Positions 8,968-30,611 of a stretch of DNA of 64,000 nt are shown here, in pieces. The notes beneath the pieces were generated by a model, which had not been told where the DNA came from, did no database searches, and was given only the letters and a program-made list of their open reading frames with translations. The stretch comes from Neofusicoccum parvum. Taxonomy: Eukaryota > Ascomycota > Dothideomycetes > Botryosphaeriales > Botryosphaeriaceae. Position numbers and translations under genes: made by a program. The stretch spans positions 62,001-126,000 of the forward strand of contig CP087216.1 of assembly GCA_020912385.1 (NCBI GenBank). The letters run 5' to 3'. Every line of letters begins with the position of its first letter. Position 1 is the stretch's first letter.

Positions 8968-9456
8968 CTAAACTCTGGGGATGGCCTTGACCAGATCGCC
9001 GAGCGCTGCGGTCAGGCTGCCGATGGGGTTGCCACCGCCGACACCCGGGATGGCGGCCGTCACGTCCTTCAGAGCTTGGTCGAGCTGGCGCTTCTCCGCA
9101 ACGGCGACGTCTCGCTTCGTGCCGGGAATGGCCTTGACGAGATCGCCAAGAGCGGCGGTGAGGGAGCCGATGGGGTTACCACCGCCGACGACTGGGATGG
9201 CGGCCGTGACGTCTTTGAGGGCCTGGCCGAGCTGGCGCTTCTCGGCGGGGTTCGTGTCGGTGTCCCTCTTTGCGCCGGGAATGGCGTTCACGAGGTCGCC
9301 GAGGGCGGAGGTGAGACTGCCGATCGGGTTGCCGCCCCCAACGACGGGAATGGCAGCGGTGACGTCCTTCAAGGCTTGGTCGAGTTGGCGTTTTTCCGTG
9401 ATAGGTGCTGAAAGGGCTGTGGCCGCGAGGAACAGGATGAGAGCGTGGAAATGCAT
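8968..9456 (-). CDS. Secreted Kex2-processed repeat precursor with three 39-residue peptides
   Basis: A single-exon frame of 162 residues. A signal peptide (MHFHALILFLAATALSA) is followed by PITEKR, then three almost identical units starting at residues 24, 75 and 124. Each unit begins QLDQALKDV or QLGQALKDV, has a GGGNPIGS hinge and ends in LGDLV-AIPG. Units one and two end in KR and are followed by spacers of 10 and 8 residues that themselves end in EKR, so Kex2-type cleavage would release three 39-residue peptides with N-terminal Gln. The two halves of each unit look amphipathic around the Gly-Pro hinge. This is the layout of fungal KEX2-processed repeat proteins. The function of the peptides is unknown; surface-active, signalling or antimicrobial roles are all possible. 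No modifying enzyme is encoded next to it. Confidence 0.85.
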   Translation of the reverse strand: MHFHALILFLAATALSAPITEKRQLDQALKDVTAAIPVVGGGNPIGSLTSALGDLVNAIPGAKRDTDTNPAEKRQLGQALKDVTAAIPVVGGGNPIGSLTAALGDLVKAIPGTKRDVAVAEKRQLDQALKDVTAAIPGVGGGNPIGSLTAALGDLVKAIPRV

Positions 9457-10468
9457 GTTTGGAGAGGATTGAAGAAATGATTTGGTTTAGGTTGAAATGC
9501 TTGCGTCGTTGTGTAGAAAGTAGAGTATAGAAGTGGCAGCTGGTGCAAGAGATTGTCGACTTGGCTCTGACCTGCAGAAGGATGCTGTGGTCAATATGCG
9601 GTGATGCTCTACTTTTATATGTCCATCTCAGGCTTCAGCAGGGTCCAGTCTTCGGTCGGATGAGAACTGTATCGGCCGTAGGCTTTCGATGTTGTACTCG
9701 GATGCTGCGGTTCCGTTGCGGGGCACATTTCCAAGTAGATAAAACAGTGGTTTGCGGTTTCGAGGCTTCCCAGAAGCCGCTGATCCGGCCGCACCACGCG
9801 CCGATTGTTTAGTGTTTATCAGATCCTTCACCACAGCTTCTCGCGTGTGAGTTTCGATTCAGAACTCGGTGAACATTCTGATGCTGTAGCGTCGAATATC
9901 GGCTGTCGGGCTACTGGACAGTGAGGGGCGTTCAGTCTCAGCTAGCGGTATATCATAGAACACTCCCTTCTAGTGCTGTTCTAGAAACTAGAGCTTAGCC
10001 TCCTCGATGTTGTCTTGGTGGTAGTGGTGCAGCAGATCCCAAACGGACCAGGCCCTAAGGCATCAAGTTTCGCGACTGCTGTAAATCGGTTCAAACTAAA
10101 CTCGGGTTTATTAGAAGTCGAAGTTTTCCGAAATAGTGATACTGCAATTCGGGACCGGATGCATCCGAACAAGCGAAGCTTTTGAGCGCAGCGTGGCTGC
10201 CACTAGCCGGCAAAGATACGCCTTGCTTACTGGGAGGTGAGTGGTGACAGTTCAACAAGGTACCATCATTTTGGGCTTGGTTCTCATACGTACCTATTGC
10301 TAAACGATGTCATGTCTCTGCTCCGCGGGGAAAAAAGCGAAAGCTGACTAGTTTGCTCGAGCTGTGTTCGGCGGTTCTGCCCTGCCGGTCGTCTGTCACA
10401 TTGATTTCTTTCGCATTTTACACATAAGTACTGGCATCACTTCTGGAAAGAACAAACTGTCTTTAGCA
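9457..10468. other. Intergenic region upstream of the repeat precursor
   Basis: About 1 kb containing the promoter of the repeat precursor (minus strand) and the 3' flank of the coiled-coil gene. Small open frames on both strands show no coding character. Confidence 0.45.
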
Positions 10469-18809: not shown

Positions 18810-20176
18810 ATGTATGAGGTCGGCCTCAACAATGTTCCATGGTTCCCGAACCATGGCGTGCAGATTGGGGTGACCGTGGGATACCTTGTTGCTCTCCCCA
18901 TCATGAGCATTATGCTTTACTCGCGTTTTCCCCCTGTCAAGACGTGTCGCGAGATCATCCGCGTATGTGCACCCTGGCTCTGGCCCTCTCTCGTGTCCAT
19001 CACTGATCGTCTCTCGCGTAGTGGAGGATGCCATACTCCAAGATCACCATCCTCATTGCTCTATTCGCAAGCTGGTGCTACATCTTTGTCGGCGGTGTGC
19101 TTAATCTTGGCGTCGGGCTAAGTCAGAGCGTTACCGAATGCTCGCGAGGCATTTTCTTGTGTACGTGGTTCTACACGACCACGAAACTTGGTGTTTATTT
19201 ATTGTGCGCAGCCAGATTTCTCCCTGTCACGCCATGGCTAACAGTCCTGCAGCCTCATGGAGCGAGCCTTCATCGTCCGGGGAGGTGGAATCCGTCTGCA
19301 GTCTTGGCATTACCGGTTCAACTTTTTTCTCATCGCTTGCTGGATCGTTGTATTCGTGCTGCTTGAGGTAAATCCCACGTCTTGGCTGTAGTCGCTCCGT
19401 GCTAACCTTCGACAAAGACTGGCCGTATTTTCGCTCTTCGGGAAGACGGCGTCTGCACCTTTGGCTGGCAATGGTGGGCCCTCATTCCGCTGATGTCACT
19501 CGATGTCTTTGTGAACTGTGAGTCTATCGTCCAGATCTCTTTTGTCGTTCCAGTTTCTAATTGTCGACACAGTGTACCTGCTCGCCATGTTTGTTATTCC
19601 TCTTTTCAAGAACCAGTTCATAAACCACAAGCTTCGCCGTCTTGCCATCAAGTCCCTCTGGACGTCCGTCGGATCTGTCCTCGCGACAATGATAAACCTT
19701 GTCATGCTGATCATGATCGATGCACCTGGCTGGCTGTGTCTCGGGTCCTGCGGCATTGACATTTTTGCCAATGCCTTGCTCCTATTCTACGTACGTGTTC
19801 AGCGGGGCGCACTCTTCTCTGCCGTTGCTAATCTGATCTCTTCTAGATGACTGCCACACTGCGCGCCGATGACAAGGAAGCACATGCAGCATGGACCATC
19901 AACGGATTCCACCACACGGATTCGCGGGCCTCGGGGTCGCGAAGTGCACGGGGACCTGGTAACACCGGCGGCTCCAAGGATCAGTGGACCTCAAAGATTG
20001 GGTCGCACGTTGACGACACAGAGTACGAGCTCAGCGAAAACAACGCTGGAGGGATCACAACGACCGTCCAGGCTCACCGGGCCGCGAGTGAGCCGAGCAT
20101 CGGGGACAACGACAGCGACAGAGAGATTCTGACGCCGTCGGGTATACACGTGAGCCATCGGGTAGATTTCACATAA
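18810..20176 (+). CDS. Multi-pass (about seven-helix) membrane protein, receptor-like
   Basis: Six exons (18810-18962, 19022-19203, 19253-19367, 19418-19517, 19573-19790, 19847-20176) join in phase to give 365 residues. Hydrophobic helices are evident at VGYLVALPIMSIML, ITILIALFASWCYIFV, LCTWFYTTTKLGVYLFL, FNFFLIACWIVVFVLL, WWALIPLMSLDVFVNLYLLAMFVIPLF, VLATMINLVMLIMI and IDIFANALLLFY. A hydrophilic tail of about 100 residues rich in Ser, Thr, Gly and Asp follows. The helix count and the cytoplasm-like tail resemble fungal GPCR-type proteins, but I do not recognise the subfamily. Its 3' end lies about 385 bases from the 3' end of the peptide precursor gene, with which it converges. It could sense something, but that is speculation. 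Confidence 0.72.
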
Positions 20177-20560: not shown

Positions 20561-21185
20561 TCAGAAGACAAAGCGCACCTGCGGATCAGCCTCGGGCTCC
20601 GCGTCCGCCAGCGCCTCCCTCGCAAAGACAAACCTGACCTGAGGGTCCGCCTCGGGCTCCGCGTCCGCCTCGGCGTCGCGCGCAAACACGAAGCGCACCT
20701 GCGGATCGGCCTCGGCCTCAGCCTCAGCCTCAGCCTCGCGGACGAAGACGAAACGGACCTGCGGGTCGGCCTCCGCGACGGCCTCCGCGTCCGCCTCGCG
20801 CGCGAACACGAAGCGCACCTGCGGGTCGGCCTCAGGCTCGGGCGCCGCGTCGGCCTCGGCGTCGCGGACGAACACGAAGCGCACCTGCGGGTCGGCCTCA
20901 GGGCTGGCGGCCGCGTCCCGCTTGAAGACGAAGCGGACCTGCGGGTCGGCCTCGGCGTCGGCCTCGGCGACGGGGTCGCGACGGAAGACGAAGCGCACTT
21001 GCGGGCTGGCGTCGCGCAGCTGGAGGTCGCTGATGATGTCGCCGCGCTTGGTGGTGTTGACTGCGAGCGGAGGTTAGAAACAAGAACTCAATGAGGAAGT
21101 CGCTGTGCAAACCGGGAAGCGCAGAGGCGGTCGTCAGGAGGGAAGCGACGCTGAGAAGCTGAGAGAAGAGAGTTGAGAAATGCAT
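20561..21185 (-). CDS. Secreted ribosomal-peptide precursor with eight QVRFVF cores
   Basis: Two exons (21185-21113, 21060-20561; intron GTTTGC...CTAACC...GCAG) encode 190 residues. A signal peptide (MHFSTLFSQLLSVASLLTTASA) is followed by a short leader with a TKR site at 28-30. Then the hexapeptide QVRFVF occurs eight times, at residues 45, 65, 83, 105, 125, 145, 165 and 185, the last copy forming the C terminus. Each internal copy is followed by two residues ending in Arg (RR, KR, VR, AR, VR, AR, AR) and then an acidic spacer of 10-14 residues. Every spacer splits exactly into X-Ala or X-Pro dipeptides, as expected for Kex2 plus dipeptidyl-aminopeptidase maturation. Four UstYa-type genes follow, which makes a dikaritin-like modified cyclic peptide the leading idea. 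An unmodified secreted peptide signal is the main alternative. Confidence 0.88.
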
Positions 21186-21297
21186 CTTGAAGACTCGGTT
21201 GAGGCGCCGCTGGATCTGCTTGAGAAGTCCTGGTTGGTGTTGATGTTTGATTGAGTGTATTGTTGATGTTTTCGACCTTGATATCTACCTGGAAATG

Positions 21298-21306
21298 TCC
21301 GAATTA
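21298..21306 (+). promoter_or_regulatory. Cluster motif TCCGAATTA, copy 1
   Basis: The 9-mer lies 113 bp upstream of the precursor ATG and 212 bp upstream of the first UstYa ATG. The same 9-mer recurs in the other two promoter regions of the cluster. Confidence 0.5.
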
Positions 21307-21336
21307 GTTACTCAGATGATGTTGTGGTGGTTATTC

Positions 21337-21352
21337 CCGAATTGGCGTTCGG
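21337..21352. promoter_or_regulatory. CCG-N10-CGG inverted repeat, candidate Zn2Cys6 operator
   Basis: CCGAA and TTCGG arms flank a 6-bp centre, an everted/inverted CCG...CGG arrangement typical of dimeric zinc-cluster regulators. It sits midway between the two divergent genes. Confidence 0.4.
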
Positions 21353-21517
21353 TGTTAAAGAATTGGTGCAAGAGAATGTCCGTCGGATGATAAACATTCT
21401 CGGAAGTTTTCCATTTGTTGCTAATTGATGTGAGAGAGTCTGTATCTTCTACATCTTTCTCATTTCTCTCTTGGCCCTCGACATCCTCCCGCGCTGCCTC
21501 GTCGTTGATGGTAAGCC

Positions 21518-22502
21518 ATGTCGCCAAGCACTACCAACACGTCTCCCCATGATGCGGAGATGCAACTTCCGTTCTTGTTCAGCTCGGCAGACTCCGAGAC
21601 GGATGAGTATGACGATGGAGGACGCAGTGAAAAGCTGGGCCTCGTTCGCGAGAAGAAAGCCCGCACCAGCACAATCATTCTCAATGCTCTCGCACGATTA
21701 AAATGGCCACTGTTCTTGTGCCTCCAGTCTTGGATCATTGTGCTCTTATATCACTCCCGGAGTGACCATACAGAAGCTGCTACAGATGTCAACGGCATTG
21801 TTCCAAAATGTATAGTCCCATTCCCCAACGCCGCTACTTTGCTGACGTGTCAATAGTGTCCCACCAAAAAATTCGATTCCGCAATCAACTCGATACTTTT
21901 ACGACAAATTTCACATCAGATGCTCAATCATTGGAGGTGAAAAACAGATGGGAAGAATTGCTACCTCGTATGTGTGCCTTGCTCCCAATTTTCTTCGCTC
22001 TTCGTATTCTGATAAGGCCACACCAGGGGGCGGTGGTACCGTACGAATCGATGACTATGAGCGCCATCCCTTCCTCAGTGAGCCTATAAGGGACGCAGAC
22101 AAGGACCGAGGACCATTGTATCAAGTGTCTTGGACTCACCAGCTCCACTGCCTTGTACGTTTAATTCAGATGCAGTGCTGCACGTGACATGAAGGCATAA
22201 GCGCTGACAACCTGGGACATCAGTATGTCATAATGGACTCGTACGACCAGCTCCTCCGCCATGGTCCACAAGGAGATGAAGCCCAAATCACGGCAGGCCA
22301 CCACAGTATTCACACTAGTCACTGTTACGACTATCTCCGGCAGGCTATACTTTGCACGATGGACATGACTTTGGAGGGCAGCATGAACGGACTGAAGACA
22401 GGTACGGATGGATTCGGGCACATGCATGTATGCCGGAGCTATCATGAGGCAGTGGATTGGATAGAGGAGCATAGGGTTTCGGACGATGCACATATTATGT
22501 AA
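21518..22502 (+). CDS. UstYa/DUF3328 family protein A
   Basis: Four exons (21518-21809, 21857-21967, 22027-22154, 22224-22502) give 269 residues. One membrane helix (WPLFLCLQSWIIVLLYH, about residue 64) follows an acidic cytoplasmic N terminus. The family core is restored by splicing: WEELLPRGGGTVRIDDYE, then VSWTHQLHCL, then HTSHCYDYLRQAILC. Both HxxHC motifs, at about 172-176 and 207-211, are intact; in known members they are essential and probably bind a metal. UstYa proteins oxidise core residues of ribosomal peptides and drive ring closure in dikaritin pathways. The gene is divergent from the QVRFVF precursor across 332 bp, which fits a direct role on that peptide. Confidence 0.88.
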
Positions 22503-22820
22503 ATGCCATTTCTTGTCTTATCTGCCCGCATGTTGACTGGTCTTAACGGCACTATTTAATTTTGCTTTATGAAGCTCTGGGTTGAGAATCATTCATTAGT
22601 TTGTCCATCATTCTTCCTACTTGCATAGAAGCTGGGCGTCTCGTTGGGGATGGATACACTTGCAGATTTAACAGAGCGGCAGCAGCCCAAGCTGCATTGA
22701 AACTTCCAATATGTCTTATCATTGTTCATGCTATTCCCAAGACGCTAGAAACTCTGTCAAAAAGAAGTTGGTACAAGTTGCAGCAGATCCCTGCACGCTG
22801 AAATCCCACACCCGTAAGTC
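22503..22820. other. Convergent gap between UstYa A and B
   Basis: About 320 bases between converging 3' ends; AT-richer and without any coding signal. Confidence 0.4.
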
Positions 22821-23519
22821 TCAATGACCCTCAGGATCCTCCACCTGTAATTCCTTCGGCGGTGCTTTTCCAATCGCCAGTGTCGTGTCGAGTGCAGAAA
22901 AGTTTCCATCCGACATTATGACTCTGGAGCAGTGTTGGATATGATGCTCCGAGTCGGACTCTTCTTCCAAGATGGTTCCGGTGATTTTCGTTCGCCACAT
23001 CTTTCTCCAGTAGTACAGGCAGTGCTGCATATGCCACTCATGACTTGTGTGCATCTCCAACCCCGGGACCGCGAATAAGGGAATCCTGGACTTCTCGAGC
23101 TCTACGAGATCATCCCCGATGGCTTCGTAATAGGTCCATGCTCCATCCGGTCCTGGGCCCGCTTTCATAAATTCGGCCGTGAGCTCTTCGTCGATGCAGC
23201 GCGGTTGTAACCACAGAGCGGCAAGCTCATCGAATTTGCATCCTAGCGATATGGCTTCCTCGACTGTATCGCCGCAGTAGCATGATGTGGAAGGTGCTTT
23301 TGCGAGTGATCCGTAAAGTCGATTGGAGAGGTCGAACGCGCCCCACAACGCCGCCAACAGAACGAGAAGGCGCCATGTATATGAGAGGGCTAGAGAAAGC
23401 CAAGAGCGGGTTGGCTTGGGAGTAGGATATGTGCCACCATCGATCAAATGCGCCTCCTCGATGTCTTTATCTGAGGCAGGAATGTAGTCTCTGCGTTTCG
23501 GGAATAAATTCTGCCACAT
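22821..23519 (-). CDS. UstYa-like protein B (two HxxHC motifs, intronless)
   Basis: A single exon of 232 residues from the ATG at 23519. A membrane helix (LLVLLAALWGAFDL, about 51-64) is followed by CGDTVEEAISLGCKFDELA, a hallmark of a fungal family close to DUF3328 with conserved CG...EA...GC...FD and a later C-x-D/E-E-L. HMQHC at 163-167 and HIQHC at 193-197 give the two HxxHC motifs of UstYa proteins. It likely faces the secretory lumen and helps oxidise the peptide, though enzymes of this branch are less studied than classic UstYa. The open frame extends upstream to 23759 but that part lacks a convincing start. The gene is divergent from UstYa C. Confidence 0.75.
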   Translation of the reverse strand: MWQNLFPKRRDYIPASDKDIEEAHLIDGGTYPTPKPTRSWLSLALSYTWRLLVLLAALWGAFDLSNRLYGSLAKAPSTSCYCGDTVEEAISLGCKFDELAALWLQPRCIDEELTAEFMKAGPGPDGAWTYYEAIGDDLVELEKSRIPLFAVPGLEMHTSHEWHMQHCLYYWRKMWRTKITGTILEEESDSEHHIQHCSRVIMSDGNFSALDTTLAIGKAPPKELQVEDPEGH

Positions 23520-23996
23520 TGCGGCTCGGAAAGAGCAGTGAAAATCGGACGTGACGGCAACGACAATGAACCAGTAGTCAGTAATCCAGGCTATGCGCTC
23601 ATGTAAAGCCCGCAAGTTATATGTGTGGGTAGTGCCAAATGCGGGAGTTTTGAACAACGTTCGGAGATACTTGCGACGGAGGTTCTCTTGGCACAAAATC
23701 ACCGAGACAAGGTATACTTCGTTGCACTCAAGAATATTTTCCAGTACTAAATGACGCATTCGTTCTTCATGTCGCTCATGTGAGGCGCCAGTTGTAGCAT
23801 GTCTGGTCTTGGTATCCGTTCCACGGTGTGACTTAAGATCCTTGAGGTGGAAATCCGGGACTAACGACGAAACCTCCGAATTAACCTCAACAATAGAAAG
23901 AGCTGGCCAAATCTTGGACTCGACTCCTCCATATCAATATCGATCTTTTATGGGATATTCGTAACAGCATTGTTAAGCTTTCGCTGAAATTCCAGC
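23520..23996. promoter_or_regulatory. Bidirectional promoter between UstYa-like B and UstYa C
   Basis: A 477-bp interval between divergent genes. It contains TCCGAATTA at 23875-23883 and a CCGTTCCACGG palindrome-like site at 23816-23826. Confidence 0.5.
23875..23883 (+). promoter_or_regulatory. Cluster motif TCCGAATTA, copy 2
   Basis: The same 9-mer as at 21298, here 114 bp upstream of the UstYa C start and 356 bp upstream of UstYa-like B. Confidence 0.5.
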
Positions 23997-24929
23997 ATGA
24001 ATTCTCCAATTAGTAATGACAGGGATGTTGACTGTGGTGCTTCTGAAAGCTTGCTCTCAAATGCCGAGAAAGGATGGTATGTTTGGCTAAAATACACGTG
24101 CTAGAGCTTGCGTTGACTTTGAAATTTTTAGGCACCCTTCAAAGCCAAGCCGACAGAGACTCTCTCATTACTTAATCCCGATGACTGTGCTGGTTTTGCT
24201 GTTGTTGGCTCTCAGCGGCACCTGGAAGCTCGGGCGCCTTAGCGCTGAACTTGACATGTTACGGGCTAACGGCAAGAGAGTTGGATGGGGGGATCCCGTG
24301 TCAAAACTGTGGATGCCCGATGACAGGTTCAATCCCCCCAATCATACCAAAGATAGCGACACTGCCTGGGACACTATCACTGCTCGTGAGTGCGGCCTGA
24401 AAAATACAGCAATTCGGTTGCTGACGAGCAGAAAGGTTATATTGGAATTGAAGATCCAACCAAGGAAGGATATCCGCCTTCGTATCTTGACCCTGACTAC
24501 GGAAACATCACCTCTTATGCCGTCTCTGCATTCCATCAACTGCACTGTCTGTATGTAAAGTCTCTCAAGAAAGCTTCACCCTCTCTCACATAACCGTATG
24601 AGCCATGGGCTAATTTGTACCACAGGAAAGTTATTCGTAGTGCTTGGTGGGCACTCCTTGAGCGGGGTGTGGAGGTCTTGGAAGATCCCACGAACGTTCC
24701 GGAGCATCCAAGCATAATGCCTCTCGTTCCCCACGTTGCTCATTGCTTCGACTTTCTCCGACAAGCTTTGATCTGCTTTGCAGACCCCACTCCGGAGCCG
24801 TATCTTATGGCTGATGGGATTACCATTCAATCTAATGGCTCCAGCGGATGGGGCGTCACACACCAATGCCGCGATTTCAATGCTCTCAGTGCCTGGACTA
24901 CGGAGCATGCTCTCTACGAGGACAGGTAG
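23997..24929 (+). CDS. UstYa/DUF3328 family protein C
   Basis: Four exons (23997-24076, 24132-24385, 24436-24550, 24626-24929) join in phase to give 250 residues. The helix LIPMTVLVLLLLALSGTW near residue 45 anchors the protein. Family landmarks are DTAWDTITA, then YIGIEDPTKEGYPPSYLDPDYG, AVSAFHQLHCL (HxxHC at about 145-149) and HVAHCFDFLRQALIC (about 186-190). The second intron ends in a less usual AAAG acceptor, the only one that keeps the frame. The expected role is oxidative modification of the neighbouring ribosomal peptide. The presence of two classic UstYa proteins (A and C) parallels the UstYa/UstYb pair of the ustiloxin pathway. Confidence 0.86.
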
Positions 24930-25544
24930 CCAACAGCATGTTGAGGCGACAGCACATGATTTTCATGAGCATTGCTGACCCGCCCTTGCTTCCACTCACA
25001 ATTATTGGAGCATGCTGTCCTTCTGAGGCGAATTTGATTGTTGGCTTCGTCATCCTCTTTCTCAGCAGACCACAGTATGCCAGAGAAAACGCATTCACAG
25101 AAGGACAGCGTGGTTAAGCTGAAGGGCCATGTGTAGGCCGGGCGATGTCGACCCGTGTCCAACAAGGAAGCGGTACCAGCCCATTTACTATTTCCATGGG
25201 GAAATCCCGCTGTAAGATTTATTCAGCAAGGACATCCGTGTCAAGCTTCCTTGGACGGCTCCTTGGAGAGGATACTGCTGCTCGACCGCTCTATGGGGCT
25301 GAGAATGGGCTTTGAAACCATGTAGGCAGTGATGGAGAGAAGAGGTCGAGAAGTCTGAGGCCAGTGGGGTGGGCTGCTAGTATACAGTACATTTGCTACA
25401 CCTTTCAAAAGGTATCCACGTTTGTAAATATCCTCGTGGTCATCACTGCATGGGATCCCAAGGAGCATGGTTGAGTAGTACATTAATTGAACTGTTCATC
25501 GCAGTGCACAGGTTTCAAAAGCTAATTTCCGTCTTTGAGAGAGA
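24930..25544. other. Convergent gap between UstYa C and D
   Basis: About 615 bases between converging genes. Short open frames only; no domain, repeat or RNA gene seen. Confidence 0.4.
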
Positions 25545-26210
25545 TCACCGTTTGTGGTGAAGTTCTGTCTGTGGCTCCGCTTTCGCATTCCTCCAACTGT
25601 AGTCGCATACAGGATACTTCGTATACAGATGACTATTGAATTCTTCCGGGTCCAGATCCCACCGGTTCAGGTTCATGGCACAATGCGCGGTGTGCATGTA
25701 ACTTGAGGTCCAGTTTTCCATTGGCCACTCGTTCATCACCGCCCGTTGGTACTTCTTCCAGATCAAGGTGCAATGGGCCAGATGCTGACGCCACGGAACC
25801 CAGGCATCGGTCAGGAGGCCCTTCATGACCTCTTCCGTCGCAATCAAGTCGGTCCCATTGTCGGTCGTTGCAAACCTCCAAGATTCGTCGCGGTCCCATT
25901 CGTCGCTGAGCTCATCGTCATAGCATGCCGCTGGCACCCAGGCGAAGTTGTGGACTTCGAATTTGCAGCCGCGAGACATTGCCTCCTGCGGCGAGCTTCC
26001 GCAGTGCGTTATGCTCGGAGCGTGGGAGTCGTCAGCTGGTCGAGAAAGATCCCAGGCCGTGAGGATGATGCTCGCTATTGCAAGCGCCATGATGATTGCT
26101 CCGATGGGCTTGCTCCATGTCGAATATCGTTTTGGCGAAGCCTCGTTCTTTTCGGGCAATGGTAAATCGGGGTCGGCGGTCTGAAGAGCGATGTATTTTT
26201 GGCCGGCCAT
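25545..26210 (-). CDS. UstYa-like protein D (two HxxHC motifs, intronless)
   Basis: A single exon of 221 residues from the ATG at 26210. A helix (IGAIIMALAIASIILTAW, about 36-53) precedes HCGSSPQEAMSRGCKFE and AACYDDELSDEW, the same signature as protein B. HLAHC at 143-147 and HTAHC at 173-177 complete the two HxxHC motifs. It is therefore a paralogue of B rather than of A and C. It probably acts with them in the secretory pathway on the QVRFVF precursor. The start at 26210 was preferred over the extended frame because it places a short polar tail before the helix, and TCCGAATTA lies 140 bp upstream. Confidence 0.76.
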   Translation of the reverse strand: MAGQKYIALQTADPDLPLPEKNEASPKRYSTWSKPIGAIIMALAIASIILTAWDLSRPADDSHAPSITHCGSSPQEAMSRGCKFEVHNFAWVPAACYDDELSDEWDRDESWRFATTDNGTDLIATEEVMKGLLTDAWVPWRQHLAHCTLIWKKYQRAVMNEWPMENWTSSYMHTAHCAMNLNRWDLDPEEFNSHLYTKYPVCDYSWRNAKAEPQTELHHKR

Positions 26211-27464
26211 GGTTGCGGGCTGCGAATGACGGCCCGGGGCCTTACTGAACGGCACCCGTTTAATTACCAAGCGCCATTGAGCATCGCTGCCTGAGGTTCA
26301 AACAAACAATATTCGGCCAATCCTGTCTCGGGCGTTTCGACAGAAAAGCTCCGAATTATCCCACGTGCGCGGCATGGACCTCGCAAGCCACGAGGCGGAA
26401 ACCGCCGGATAAATCACAGTAGGCAGCCGAGAATTGCCTTAGGTAGTTAACGTCGGAGTGTCATGGAGCAATGGTGACTGAGTAGCTATACGAACGGGGC
26501 TGTGTCGGGATGATAAAGACTCGCCGCCGCCGCTCCATCCCTGCAATGGAACTAGAACCCGGACCGACGCGGGCAACACCAAGCTTGGTTTCTGGGCTTT
26601 CGGAAAAGCGTCGGGAGGGCTAGTGGTCCACAGAGATGAGAATAGAAGCAGCTGACACAAGGAAATCCCCATGTCTTGTATCTTCCAGGTCGGCCGCGAC
26701 CAAGACACCACTTGAGCTACGTTAGGAGCTCGCATTGATCTGCGGACCCGAAAAGGGCCGAGCAACACTCATCGACTTCCTCGGGCTATGGGTGGCCTGA
26801 ATATACCAATGGAGTTGCGGGGGACCAGGCCACACGATAAGACATCGGCTTGGCCGCTACGACCCGGATCGCGACCTTGATTACTTACTGTGGACAGCTG
26901 AGCAATGCCTGCGTTGTACCCTTAGCGGTGCTTTGACCACGACTTTGGAGCCATACGGCGCTACGTGCGCTGAAGAGTCGGTCCTCGTATCTGTTCTGCT
27001 AGAAACTCAGCAAAAGGCTGTTGGTCCTAAGTAGCGGCCCCGAACACTTTTACACAATTAAACGCAGTTGGCACGCGTTTGTCTATACTAAATGCTACAC
27101 TTATATACAGCTTTCCAGCCAATGAAAGCGAATCCAATCCGTGTGCATTGTTTACGAAACTGGCTACTGTGCACACCGCCCTCGTTCACCGACTCGCCTT
27201 GGCCAATCCGAGGCAGATTGCTCGCAACAGTGTCGGAGTATCGACACGTTTCGACACCGACGCAGATCATAGCCATCTGGAAGCGGTACCGACCCCCGCA
27301 TCTCGAATGTGACGATCCAGCCGTATGTGCATCAACAGAGATATAAAGCGGGAAACAGGTCCGGCGCCGCCGGGATGGAACCAGTGCACTCATAGAGCAT
27401 TTCCATTTGGTGGACTCACCTCTCAGATCTTTCTTTTTCTGTTGCTTCTTCGACCCCCTGGAAA
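26211..27464. other. Promoter region of UstYa-like D and of the cluster regulator
   Basis: About 1.25 kb separating two divergent genes. It holds TCCGAATTA at 26350-26358. No open frame in it has coding character. Confidence 0.45.
26350..26358 (+). promoter_or_regulatory. Cluster motif TCCGAATTA, copy 3
   Basis: Third occurrence of the 9-mer, 140 bp upstream of the start of UstYa-like D. Confidence 0.5.
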
Positions 27465-28574
27465 ATGCAAAGACCCAAGCCTTTCGCCAGCGAGGCTGGG
27501 GCTATCAATGCCTGCGATCAGTGCCACCGTCGGAAATTGGGGTGCTCGAAAGGCAAGCCCAAGTGCGGCCGGTGCATTGCGGATGGCAGAATGTGCACAT
27601 ACTCCATGCACCGTGGCGTTGGCCGACCGAAGAAAGAAATAAGAAAGACACAGGCAAGCCATGCTCCTTACTTGCGGCCGCAGCCACATTCACAGACCCG
27701 CTTTGATTTCACGGAGCTTGAGATGGAGAATGGTTTGTGGTCAATGCATTTCCATCCGTAAGTTCTCAACTGACTTGGGTTCTTAGTGTTCCATGATTTC
27801 GATGGCGACGCACTGGGAGCATTCTTACAGAACGGCGCAGCAAGCAAGGAAACACCTTCTGCGCCAACTCCGCCTCCATCAGCCGGCGCGGCTTGCTCGG
27901 ATGTGGAAGCAAATTCGCTCTCCACATCGGATGGATCCCAGCAAAGTGATGTCAGCAGAACACGCTCGGGATCAGCTTCTCAGTCACCTCCACTTCGGAA
28001 CAGCTCGGATGGGGGCTTTCATGATTTTGGCGCCTCGTTAATCATGGATGACTCTCACCAATCACCTGCCAGGAATTCAGAGGACGAGTGTATGAAGATC
28101 GGCAGGGGATTCTCGTGTGGGTGTCTCTCCGCACTTCTTGGCTGTCTCGGCAAACTGGAAGCGACGCCGTTAGATGCTTCGTCGAACGTCGAGCTCGCGT
28201 CCTGCTGCGTCCTGCACATCCGCTCTGCTTTCAGTACCTGCGAGCGCCTCATCATGTGTGACTACAAGCATGAAAGTCTCTCCATCCTGATTGTTCTGGC
28301 AATTCTGCAGAAGGTTGACGACTACTTCTACCGCTTTTCCACCGACAACTTCATGTCTTCGCCGGATTGCCCCAATGCAGATCGTTGGACCACATACATC
28401 GGCGCCTCGACGCTAATTGGCAGGAAAGACATGATGCGCGCCATTATGATTCTGGCCGCATTACGATCCATGGATCAGTCCGAGACCGGGATGGAGACAT
28501 GTTCCTCGCGACCAATGGCAACGTTGGGGGAGTACATCAACCATCTGCAGGGGAACTTCGAGGCCCGTATTTGA
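27465..28574 (+). CDS. AflR-type Zn2Cys6 regulator of the peptide cluster
   Basis: Two exons (27465-27732, 27787-28574; intron GTTTGT...ACTGAC...TTAG) give 351 residues. The zinc cluster INACDQCHRRKLGCSKGKPK then CGRCIADGRMC has the spacing C-x2-C-x6-C-x6-C-x2-C-x6-C at about 18-45, followed by a basic linker (RGVGRPKKE). Downstream is a Ser/Pro-rich region and then CGCLSALLGCLGKLEATP, which resembles the AflR regulatory domain of secondary-metabolite activators. Such proteins act in the nucleus on their own cluster. The CCG-containing 9-mers in the neighbouring promoters are candidate targets. A second donor 25 nt downstream (GTAAGT) would break the frame, so it was rejected. Confidence 0.83.
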
Positions 28575-28895
28575 TTCTCGCAGGGCAAGATAGACTTTGA
28601 AACAAGATAGAATATGTAATAAACGATCTTCAGGTACAGTTTCTTGGGCTTTGCTGTTGATATCGTGTGTTGATTGGCGTTCGGCTGTATTCGCGGCAGT
28701 ATTGCGTCTGGGTAGGTAGTGTGCCAAACTCGGACATTTTTTCGTCTTCGCCCAGAAATCCCCGAGTTTGCGAAACACCCGTGCAGTTAACTCTCACAAA
28801 GTCTTTCTTGCGGTTTGTTAGACAATCGACTGTCCGATGGCTTCCTGAATCCACGTGCTAAAACTTCTCTGCACCTATCTCATTGCTTTCCGGGG
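28575..28895. other. Upstream region of the transporter gene
   Basis: About 320 bases between two plus-strand genes; presumed terminator and promoter, nothing specific seen. Confidence 0.35.
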
Positions 28896-30611
28896 ATGGC
28901 GTCACTTGGAGGTGTCACCGTGGTCATGTCATTTGATGAGAAAGAATTCTCGGCCAAATGGGTAGATAATGTCTTATCTATGTCGGACATGGCCATGTTG
29001 ACTTGCGGTCTTGGGGGGTAAGCCGTTCTTGCTCCGCGGGCCTTGGCATCAATCGCTAACCGCTTACAGCTTGCAACTTGTTTGGAGCACCATCTTTGCT
29101 CATGGGACGGTTTGTGGCCGATAAATCCCTCGGCACGGTTATTCAACTGACAGGTTCCAGGACCACCTCCTGTCACTTGGAATCCCGAAGTCTTTCACTG
29201 CTCTTTTGTGGGCGGTGATTCCCATCTGCGGCACCTTCGTCCAGCCTATTTTTGGCGTTCTTAGTGACCAATCTACATCAAACTGGGGCCGTCGGACACC
29301 CTTCATAGCCGCTGGTGCTGCCGGTGTCACGTGTTCGATGATTGGACTGGCATGGACTGGCAGTTCTGCCACTCGTTTAGAGTGGGTCGCTAGAGCATCT
29401 CACAATAGCCACTCGGCAATACTCGGATCTTTGTCGACCTTCTGGATGTGTGCTCTGAGTGTTGCTGTTCAGCCACTCCAGCTTGGGTTGAGGGCATTAA
29501 TCATCGACAAGTATCCAAGAGAGCACCAGATCAAGGCCAGTGCGTGGAGCAGTGTTTCAATTGGCATAGGAAACACTCTCGGCTACTTGCTTGCCTCGAC
29601 AAAGCTGTCCAATTTCCGGCCTTTCACCACACTCAGCCAGTTCCAAAGCGAGGCCGTTATCGTGTCTTGCTGTTTGCTTCTCAGTGTGGTAGTCACCTGC
29701 GTGGCTGCAAGAGAGGCACCTCTCAAGACTTTGCCCTCTCCAAAGTTGCGGGCCAGTTTATCTAACACAGTCATGCACATGGCTCAATCTACGGGGCTCA
29801 TGGATGGAATCATATCCCGCGTGTTTCAGATACAATTTGTGTCTTGGCTCGGGTGGTTCTCCGTCTTGTTCTATCAGACCATGTAAGCGGTCGCCCAGCC
29901 CATCTTTTGACTGACCACAGGACTGACAAGCGCAGATACTTGACTGACTTATGTGAGTCCCACATCTTGACTACGGAAAGCAATGCTGACTGAGCAGATG
30001 TTTCACCGAAGCTACTCGAACAACCCTGGATACCCCGCTCTGAGGTGGGCAGCATACATCAACGCGGACTTCGTCAAGCAACCTTTTCAGGTCTTGCTTT
30101 TGCAGTCGTATCGATGTCATCAAGCATTTTGATTCCTTGGGTGTTCCGCAGATATTTCCAGCGGCACAGACAAGAGTCGAGACTCAGCGCCGAAAGACCA
30201 GCCCTGGCACTTTGGTGGGCCTTCGGGCATATGTGGTTCGCCCTTTCCATGTTCGCCACCACGTTCATTCGGTCTTTCGGCCAAGGCGCAGTCATGGCTT
30301 GCTTAGTTGGTGTTCCATCTGCGCTCAACACTTGGATCCCATTCGCCATCATTGGATCAGAAGTTGCCGACGCAGAGGACAGCATGGAAGGGAGCGGCGC
30401 TTCTGGCTTTGTCAGCAGTATCCACAATGCCACCATTTCATCGCCTCAAATAGTGGCAGCATTGCTGAGTGCGCTGATATTTTCCGCTGCGGCATCTTTC
30501 GAAAGCGAACGGGCCGTTGTCTGGGTGCTTAACTTGGGCGGTGTGTGGGCCCTGCTGGCGGCGTACAAAAGCCTCGCATTGCGGAGATACTTGGCCGCTT
30601 CAAGGCAATGA
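28896..30611 (+). CDS. Sucrose-transporter-like MFS (GPH type) membrane protein
   Basis: Five exons (28896-29017, 29070-29109, 29161-29882, 29936-29952, 29998-30611) give 504 residues. One exon is only 17 nt, and the splices before and after it restore FYQTIYLTDLYVSPK. Landmarks are LLSLGIPKSFTALLWAVIPICGTFVQPIFGVLSD, RRTPFIAAGA and many hydrophobic helices; these match sucrose/H+ symporter-like proteins of fungi and plants. It resides in a membrane and moves a small solute. Directly after the cluster regulator, it could export the peptide or import sugar; the family favours sugar, so its membership in the cluster is uncertain. The N-terminal exon boundaries are the weakest part. Confidence 0.76.

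Follow-up and report, generated by a model that had tools for sequence, protein, structure and literature searches.

A cluster of seven genes at positions 20561-30611 of the window (the whole 64,000-nucleotide stretch analysed here, C11:62001-126000 in the 44.0-Mb, 18-contig genome of Neofusicoccum parvum, a fungus that causes grapevine canker) quite probably encodes a dikaritin-like ribosomal peptide pathway. In this pathway a secreted precursor with eight copies of QVRFVF would be trimmed in the style of a pheromone, and the hexapeptide would be oxidatively modified with the participation of a divergent UstYa-like partner. The cluster consists of the precursor gene, two UstYa genes (PF11807; A and C), two genes of a kind named D-type here (B and D), a Zn2Cys6 gene and an MFS-like gene. 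The exon models of the precursor, A and C were predicted from the sequence in this analysis. The initial annotation of this DNA had proposed a UstYa-associated ribosomal-peptide cluster, a proposal that is now well supported; the STE13 signature of the spacers, a sister cluster in the same genome and the unrecognised D-type family go beyond it.

The QVRFVF precursor

The precursor gene (21185-20561, minus strand) has two exons and encodes a secreted protein of 190 amino acids. Exon 1 (21113-21185) holds the start codon and the signal peptide region, the most hydrophobic 19-residue stretch of the protein being residues 5-23. Exon 2 (20561-21060) holds the pro-region, the eight cores and eight X-Ala/X-Pro spacers, one before each core. 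The intervening intron (21061-21112, 52 nucleotides, GT-AG, phase 1) has to be taken out for the signal peptide to be joined to the repeat frame. Eight in-frame QVRFVF-coding matches were found at 20564-21001 on the minus strand and none in 100 shuffles of the window, which confirms the secreted eight-copy precursor first proposed; the gene model also bears out that its core has no Tyr. In the whole genome, a ninth match was a single copy on contig C3, and the reversed control pattern gave two matches. The stop codon follows directly after the last core, which favours the hexapeptide as the core over a longer unit.

Among the eight QVRFVF copies all seven variable nucleotide sites are synonymous, as are all five among the 25 copies of QKLKVD, the core of the sister precursor on contig C15 described below. 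Synonymous changes account for about a fifth of the possible single changes (0.22 for QVRFVF and 0.19 for QKLKVD, an estimate that treats sites as independent and equally mutable). Since all the differences among the cores are synonymous, the encoded hexapeptides look maintained. Gene conversion can also keep copies alike; alone it would not favour synonymous differences.

A protein-database search with the whole precursor scored 7,995 candidates and yielded none at E<=0.01, its own gene included, and a search with residues 1-56 gave six candidates and none at E<=10. These results carry little information, as the repetitive Ala/Glu-rich sequence would be scored down and the gene may be unannotated. 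No mention of QVRFVF was found in the literature searched.

Spacers and processing sites

Read from the basic residue up to the core that follows, the spacers of the QVRFVF precursor are DASP, DPVAEADAEADP, DAAASPEADP, DAEADAAPEPEADP, EADAEAVAEADP, EAEAEAEAEADP, DAEADAEPEADP and EALADAEPEADP. All eight are of even length and split wholly into X-Ala/X-Pro dipeptides. This is the STE13 signature, reported to be generally dedicated to Ascomycota alpha-pheromones (PMC6339444). The 25 spacers of the sister precursor are likewise all even-length and made of X-Ala/X-Pro only. When the spacers were shuffled 50,000 times with their composition kept, at most 3 of 8 (QVRFVF) and 14 of 25 (QKLKVD) fell in register. 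According to PMC6339444, STE13 processing is not predicted for the ustiloxin and phomopsin precursors, and epichloecyclin precursors are without the signature. The combination of STE13 spacers with DUF3328 neighbours is not wholly unprecedented. Such neighbours were reported for 17 of 76 repeat precursors resembling the basidiomycete STE13 type, and three pheromone-annotated Ascomycota genes lie near DUF3328, at 15, 12 and 2 genes (PMC7329392).

The seven residue pairs that separate a core from the following spacer are RR, KR, VR, AR, VR, AR and AR, and LR precedes the first spacer. With eight cores, a signal peptide and Kex2-type sites the gene has the build of a secreted multicore precursor, but the sites are dibasic at only 2 of 7 inter-core positions. 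Kex2 is reported to require Arg almost always at P1 and to prefer Lys at P2, a position that varies considerably (Arg, Thr, Pro, Glu and Ile come next), and to prefer Leu or another aliphatic residue at P4 (PMC8528282). At the QVRFVF inter-core sites P4 is Val. On these preferences cleavage is plausible, and likely to be less efficient at five of the seven sites. The genome contains one match to the Kex2-type P-domain and three to DPPIV_N, apparently in two genes, so that trimming enzymes of the Kex2 and dipeptidyl-peptidase types exist in it.

UstYa proteins and the divergent D-type family

UstYa A (21518-22502, plus strand; exons 21518-21809, 21857-21967, 22027-22154 and 22224-22502; 269 amino acids) contains the motifs HQLHC and HTSHC, and UstYa C (23997-24929, plus strand; exons 23997-24076, 24132-24385, 24436-24550 and 24626-24929; 250 amino acids) contains HQLHC and HVAHC. 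Their PF11807 scores were 83.2 and 91 bits, respectively, above the cut-off of 25. B (22821-23759, minus strand; a 312-amino-acid open frame whose start may be 23519; HMQHC and HIQHC) and D (25545-26210, minus strand; 221 amino acids; HLAHC and HTAHC; one N-terminal membrane helix) are single-frame genes and are related to each other. The motif count confirmed two HxxHC motifs in each of these four neighbours of the precursor; in 100,000 shuffles, two motifs were reached 12 times for A, 5 for B, once for C and 3 times for D. The earlier description of all four as UstYa-type proteins held for A and C, which lie above the PF11807 cut-off; B and D belong to a divergent family and reached no Pfam cut-off.

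In the protein database D matched eight proteins, five of them without an organism name. The N. parvum protein P0001 has the length and start of D and differs at 1 residue of 221; further relatives are P0002 of Periconia macrospinosa (67% identity over 67% of the query) and P0007 of Colletotrichum liriopes. Six D-type members, B and D included, gave no NCBIfam match at E<=1. PF11807 matched below threshold over the motif region in three of eight scanned members (L010, L012 and L014; E 0.017, 0.020 and 0.052) and was absent in P0003 and P0005-P0008. These sub-threshold matches, and the pairing of both motifs when the D-type and UstYa profiles were aligned with hhalign, suggest that the two families are distantly related. 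In an alignment of 13 D-type sequences H146, C147, H173 and C177 are invariant, and H143 and H176 nearly so.

An AlphaFold2 model of D built from eight sequences had a mean predicted local distance difference test (pLDDT) score of 75 and a predicted template modelling (pTM) score of 0.61, with ten-residue pLDDT means of 79-95 over residues 71-210. It places a membrane helix at 33-55 and the two motifs (143-147 and 173-177) inside helices 140-160 and 171-181. This modelled layout agrees with that of CctR, which is reported to have a membrane helix, to carry its HxxHC motifs on a pair of helices and to bind two coppers in each monomer (PMC12435403). Compared with solved PDB structures, the model gave no fold match at E<=0.001. 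Against PDB sequences the D-type profile found no relative at E<=0.1, and the UstYa profile found one unconvincing light-chain match (E 0.082).

With D as query, six matches at E<=0.1 were obtained in the genome: D itself and B, two matches on C15, and single ones at C10:220 kb and C11:47 kb. All six lie within about 5 kb of PF11807 matches. As D and B belong to the window, four matches at three loci remain as independent support. At the UstYa loci C10:1.47 Mb and C13:1.68 Mb no D-type match was found at this threshold. The C10 member (L025 8242-8979, minus strand; C10:220241-220978) has one His fewer in each motif (YVAHC and HTDAC) and is possibly a non-catalytic partner.

A sister cluster on contig C15

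The window was compared with nine other UstYa loci (19 stretches in all), C10:1.47 Mb and C13:1.68 Mb being left out. At one of them, C15:1.074-1.085 Mb, the same seven gene types were found: a precursor, two UstYa, two D-type, a Zn2Cys6 and an MFS gene, in a gene order and on strands that differ from those of the window. The initial annotation had put forward, as a check in related genomes, that precursor and UstYa-type genes should be conserved together; here this is seen inside the same genome. The C15 precursor (C15:1084260-1085345; L024 4261-5346) contains 25 copies of QKLKVD. When spliced it has 340 amino acids. Like the window gene it has a phase-1 intron (65 nucleotides here) after the signal peptide, and here too the stop codon comes directly after the last core. 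KR or RR precedes all 25 spacers.

One of the two C15 UstYa sequences showed 56% identity to C over 127 columns, 59% over 44 and, in the N-terminal part, 35% over 79. The MFS homologue was 33% identical over 247 and 28% over 223 columns to the two frames of the window gene, and the Zn2Cys6 homologue 38% over 61 columns. The Zn2Cys6 and MFS frames of the window matched at C15 alone among the nine other loci (tblastn, E<=1e-4). This comparison argues for cluster borders at the precursor and the MFS gene, as they had first been drawn. A GNAT acetyltransferase-like frame was noticed by eye inside the C15 cluster (L023 5607-6056; C15:1075606-1076055), and no counterpart was seen in the window.

Precursors were screened for as frames of at least 50 amino acids in which a four-residue word recurs and KR/RR occurs three times or more, judged by eye, a screen that can miss spliced or single-core precursors. 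They were found at four of the nine other loci: C15, C10:223 kb (3 x VQAWGGDLNAIDFK), C11:42-44 kb (11 x ADPPWYRDSAAS) and C1:191 kb (13 x EAAPAYVWASSAK). At C18, C10:634 kb, C13:1.99 Mb, C5 and C9 this screen showed no precursor-like frame. The three found besides C15 (L027 6392-7876, minus strand; L026 1077-1364, plus strand; L031 4778-5965, plus strand) stand beside UstYa genes and contain Trp- or Tyr-containing repeats; the STE13 register was not seen in them by eye. D-type genes occurred at four of the five precursor-bearing loci versus none of the five others (one-sided Fisher 0.024, post hoc).

Regulator, transporter and neighbouring genes

A Pfam scan was made of ten proteins in and beside the cluster, covering the gene models of 20561-30611. 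The Zn2Cys6 regulator (27465-28574, plus strand; frames 27465-27761 and 27774-28574) scored 34.6 bits with Zn_clus (PF00172; cut-off 21), in agreement with its first assignment to the Zn2Cys6 type. The transporter gene (29125-30611, plus strand; frames 29125-29886 and 29994-30611) probably has a further 5' exon upstream of these frames. Its first frame scored 28.1 bits with MFS_1 (cut-off 33.4), 24 with MFS_2 (27) and 22.1 with PUCC (21), and the second frame had no match in the scan. The gene is likely, judging from its sequence, to encode an MFS protein as initially annotated, though it remains below the MFS_1 cut-off. Neither a tyrosinase nor a peptidase domain turned up in the ten proteins.

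The flanks contain genes for a polysaccharide lyase, an esterase-like protein, RTA1, a GMC oxidoreductase and one more Zn2Cys6 protein. Tail to tail with the precursor gene lies a six-exon gene for a membrane protein (18810-20176, plus strand) with no family above cut-off. A role of this protein as peptide receptor was considered and is not supported: it has many hydrophobic stretches, but its DUF6611 match is sub-threshold (E 0.02), and the sole STE2 match of the genome is on C3. About 11 kb from the QVRFVF precursor, at 8971-9486 on the minus strand, a second secreted Kex2-type repeat precursor was observed, with a signal peptide and then three repeats starting QLDQALKD or QLGQALKD, EKR standing before each.

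Proposed pathway and alternative explanations

We infer every enzymatic step of the following route, together with the copper, the product and its role. The secreted precursor would pass into the endoplasmic reticulum and Golgi. Kex2 would cleave after the Arg that follows each core, a Kex1-type carboxypeptidase would trim the C-terminal side, and an STE13-type dipeptidyl aminopeptidase would strip the X-Ala/X-Pro spacer by twos up to the Gln of QVRFVF. The exposed N-terminal Gln could then become pyroglutamate. The membrane-anchored A and C, together with B and D, would oxidise the core in the Golgi lumen, where their paired HxxHC motifs would bind copper. Because the core is without Tyr, the oxidation would most likely hydroxylate Phe, Val or Arg or place a crosslink there; the initial annotation had suggested Phe or Arg as the modified residues. 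Export of the product may fall to the MFS protein, and the Zn2Cys6 protein may act as regulator of the cluster. For a plant pathogen, host interaction or antagonism is the usual guess at the role of such a product, and signalling is possible.

Several observations weigh against this pathway. At the processing sites, dibasic KR/RR occurs at 2 of 7 inter-core positions, the other five being Ala-Arg or Val-Arg, with Leu-Arg before the first core, and the Val-Arg inside QVRFVF is a possible off-target for Kex2. A peptidase domain was found in none of the ten scanned proteins in and beside the cluster, and the protein database gave no precursor homologue. The C15 match to the Zn2Cys6 regulator spans 61 residues, all within its DNA-binding part, while its remaining sequence matched nothing there, and the C15 MFS identities (33% and 28%) are modest. 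B and D did not reach the UstYa cut-off and had no Pfam match at E<=0.1; hhalign gave the D-type and UstYa families a probability of 4.7%, yet paired both HxxHC motifs. The association of D-type genes with precursors is small and post hoc.

The lack of a Pfam match and the low hhalign probability would fit an explanation in which B and D are membrane proteins unrelated to UstYa that carry HxxHC motifs by chance, leaving the precursor, A and C as the active pathway, and so would the lack of an NCBIfam match and of a PDB fold match. We consider it unlikely, given the four invariant and two nearly invariant His and Cys residues in 13 sequences, the position of all six D-type genome matches beside UstYa genes and the sub-threshold UstYa matches over the motif region in three of eight members. 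The processing sites raise the question of decay: if Kex2 sites had drifted to monobasic, a real cluster could be decaying or silent and make little or no product, and the contrast between Ala-Arg or Val-Arg at five of seven inter-core sites and KR or RR before all 25 spacers of the sister precursor would be explained. Decay is nevertheless hard to reconcile with core copies that differ only by synonymous changes, with four UstYa-type gene models that are all open and with a spacer grammar intact in 8 of 8, and is very unlikely in our view.

The product might also be an unmodified linear signalling peptide or an alpha-factor-type mating pheromone, with UstYa-type neighbours that are unrelated to it. 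The complete STE13 dipeptide grammar, the secretory signal and the last copy ending at the stop agree with this, and repeat precursors with STE13 signatures are described as good hormone candidates (PMC6339444). The genome has an STE2 receptor match, and a true alpha-pheromone was not found in pattern searches: DNA patterns of the WC...CW type matched at 660 places versus 293 for the reversed control, and at 47 versus 25, and the C..PGQ.C pattern at 23 versus 13, each about twofold above its control, with no multicopy gene standing out genome-wide among the matches listed. No pheromone precursor of Botryosphaeriaceae was found in the literature searched. However, Dothideomycete alpha-pheromones are reported to have two Cys or a PYGxPxG core (PMC6339444), and QVRFVF has neither; the sole STE2 match is on a different contig, C3; a matching neighbour set surrounds a second precursor with a different core on C15; and 98.6% of 216 putative fungal pheromones are reported without a DUF3328 neighbour (PMC7329392). 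A pheromone or other linear signal is thus quite improbable, and the dikaritin-like pathway is preferred.

Comparison with known systems

With double-HxxHC UstYa proteins beside a secreted multicore precursor that has Kex2-type sites, the cluster is a dikaritin cluster in the broad sense (UstYa and a multicore precursor). Ustiloxin, phomopsin and asperipin crosslink a Tyr in the core, a dikaritin feature absent here, as neither QVRFVF nor QKLKVD contains Tyr. Victorin, of Cochliobolus victoriae, is the nearest precedent. Its core is reportedly GLKLAF, as given in the initial annotation. In this form it is, like QVRFVF, a Tyr-free hexapeptide ending in Phe, and positions 2-6 of QVRFVF resemble it in being aliphatic, basic, hydrophobic, aliphatic and Phe. 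The core sequences differ, and the sister core QKLKVD is without Phe. Other likenesses to victorin are a multicore precursor, probably Kex2-processed (PMC9233826), and an origin in a plant pathogen of the Dothideomycetes (class: PMC12048977). Victorin is reported to be cyclised through the side chain of its C-terminal Phe and an internal Leu (PMC9233826).

The ustiloxin and phomopsin systems share with the cluster a signal peptide, repeated cores, Kex2-type sites and UstYa genes nearby (PMC7329392, PMC9233826). Unlike them, the cluster has a Tyr-free core, the STE13 grammar reported absent there (PMC6339444), no tyrosinase or peptidase domain among the ten scanned proteins and two D-type partners. 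Of repeated sequences with DUF3328 neighbours, 65.6% are reported to contain Tyr (PMC7329392), so that about a third do not, and Tyr-free cores are a minority rather than an exception. The cyclochlorotine hydroxylase CctR (DUF3328) resembles the D model, which predicts one membrane helix, a luminal domain and an HxxHC pair on two helices. It differs in that its substrate is a non-ribosomal peptide and in that B and D have no Pfam match at the threshold given above. Surveys for such peptides use dibasic Kex2 sites and Pfam DUF3328 neighbours (PMC7329392, PMC6339444); the QVRFVF precursor has few dibasic sites, and the Pfam model misses B and D.

Ascomycota alpha-pheromone precursors are also built of a multicopy peptide with a Kex2 site and X-Ala/X-Pro dipeptides between the copies (PMC6339444). 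In contrast to them, the precursors described here have no two-Cys or PYGxPxG core, lie alongside UstYa-type genes and occur with two cores in two clusters. The two roles known for Kex2 repeat precursors, as pheromones and as sources of modified peptides, meet here in one gene, which bears on the hypothesis that linear mating factors gave rise to the modified repeat peptides (PMC7329392). As a tentative suggestion, which we hold to be doubtful, both clusters might stand, as a living intermediate, between alpha-pheromone precursors and ribosomal peptides of the toxin type, in which pheromone-style trimming feeds two HxxHC oxidase families, UstYa and D-type as its sister family, that jointly modify Tyr-free hexapeptides. 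If this were true, D-type proteins would form a new branch among the copper peptide oxidases, and their genes would serve as a new marker in the search for such clusters. The sister cluster with its other core offers a natural two-substrate experiment on enzyme recognition. Taken as a whole, the cluster would work like the pheromone route in trimming and like the dikaritin route in modification.

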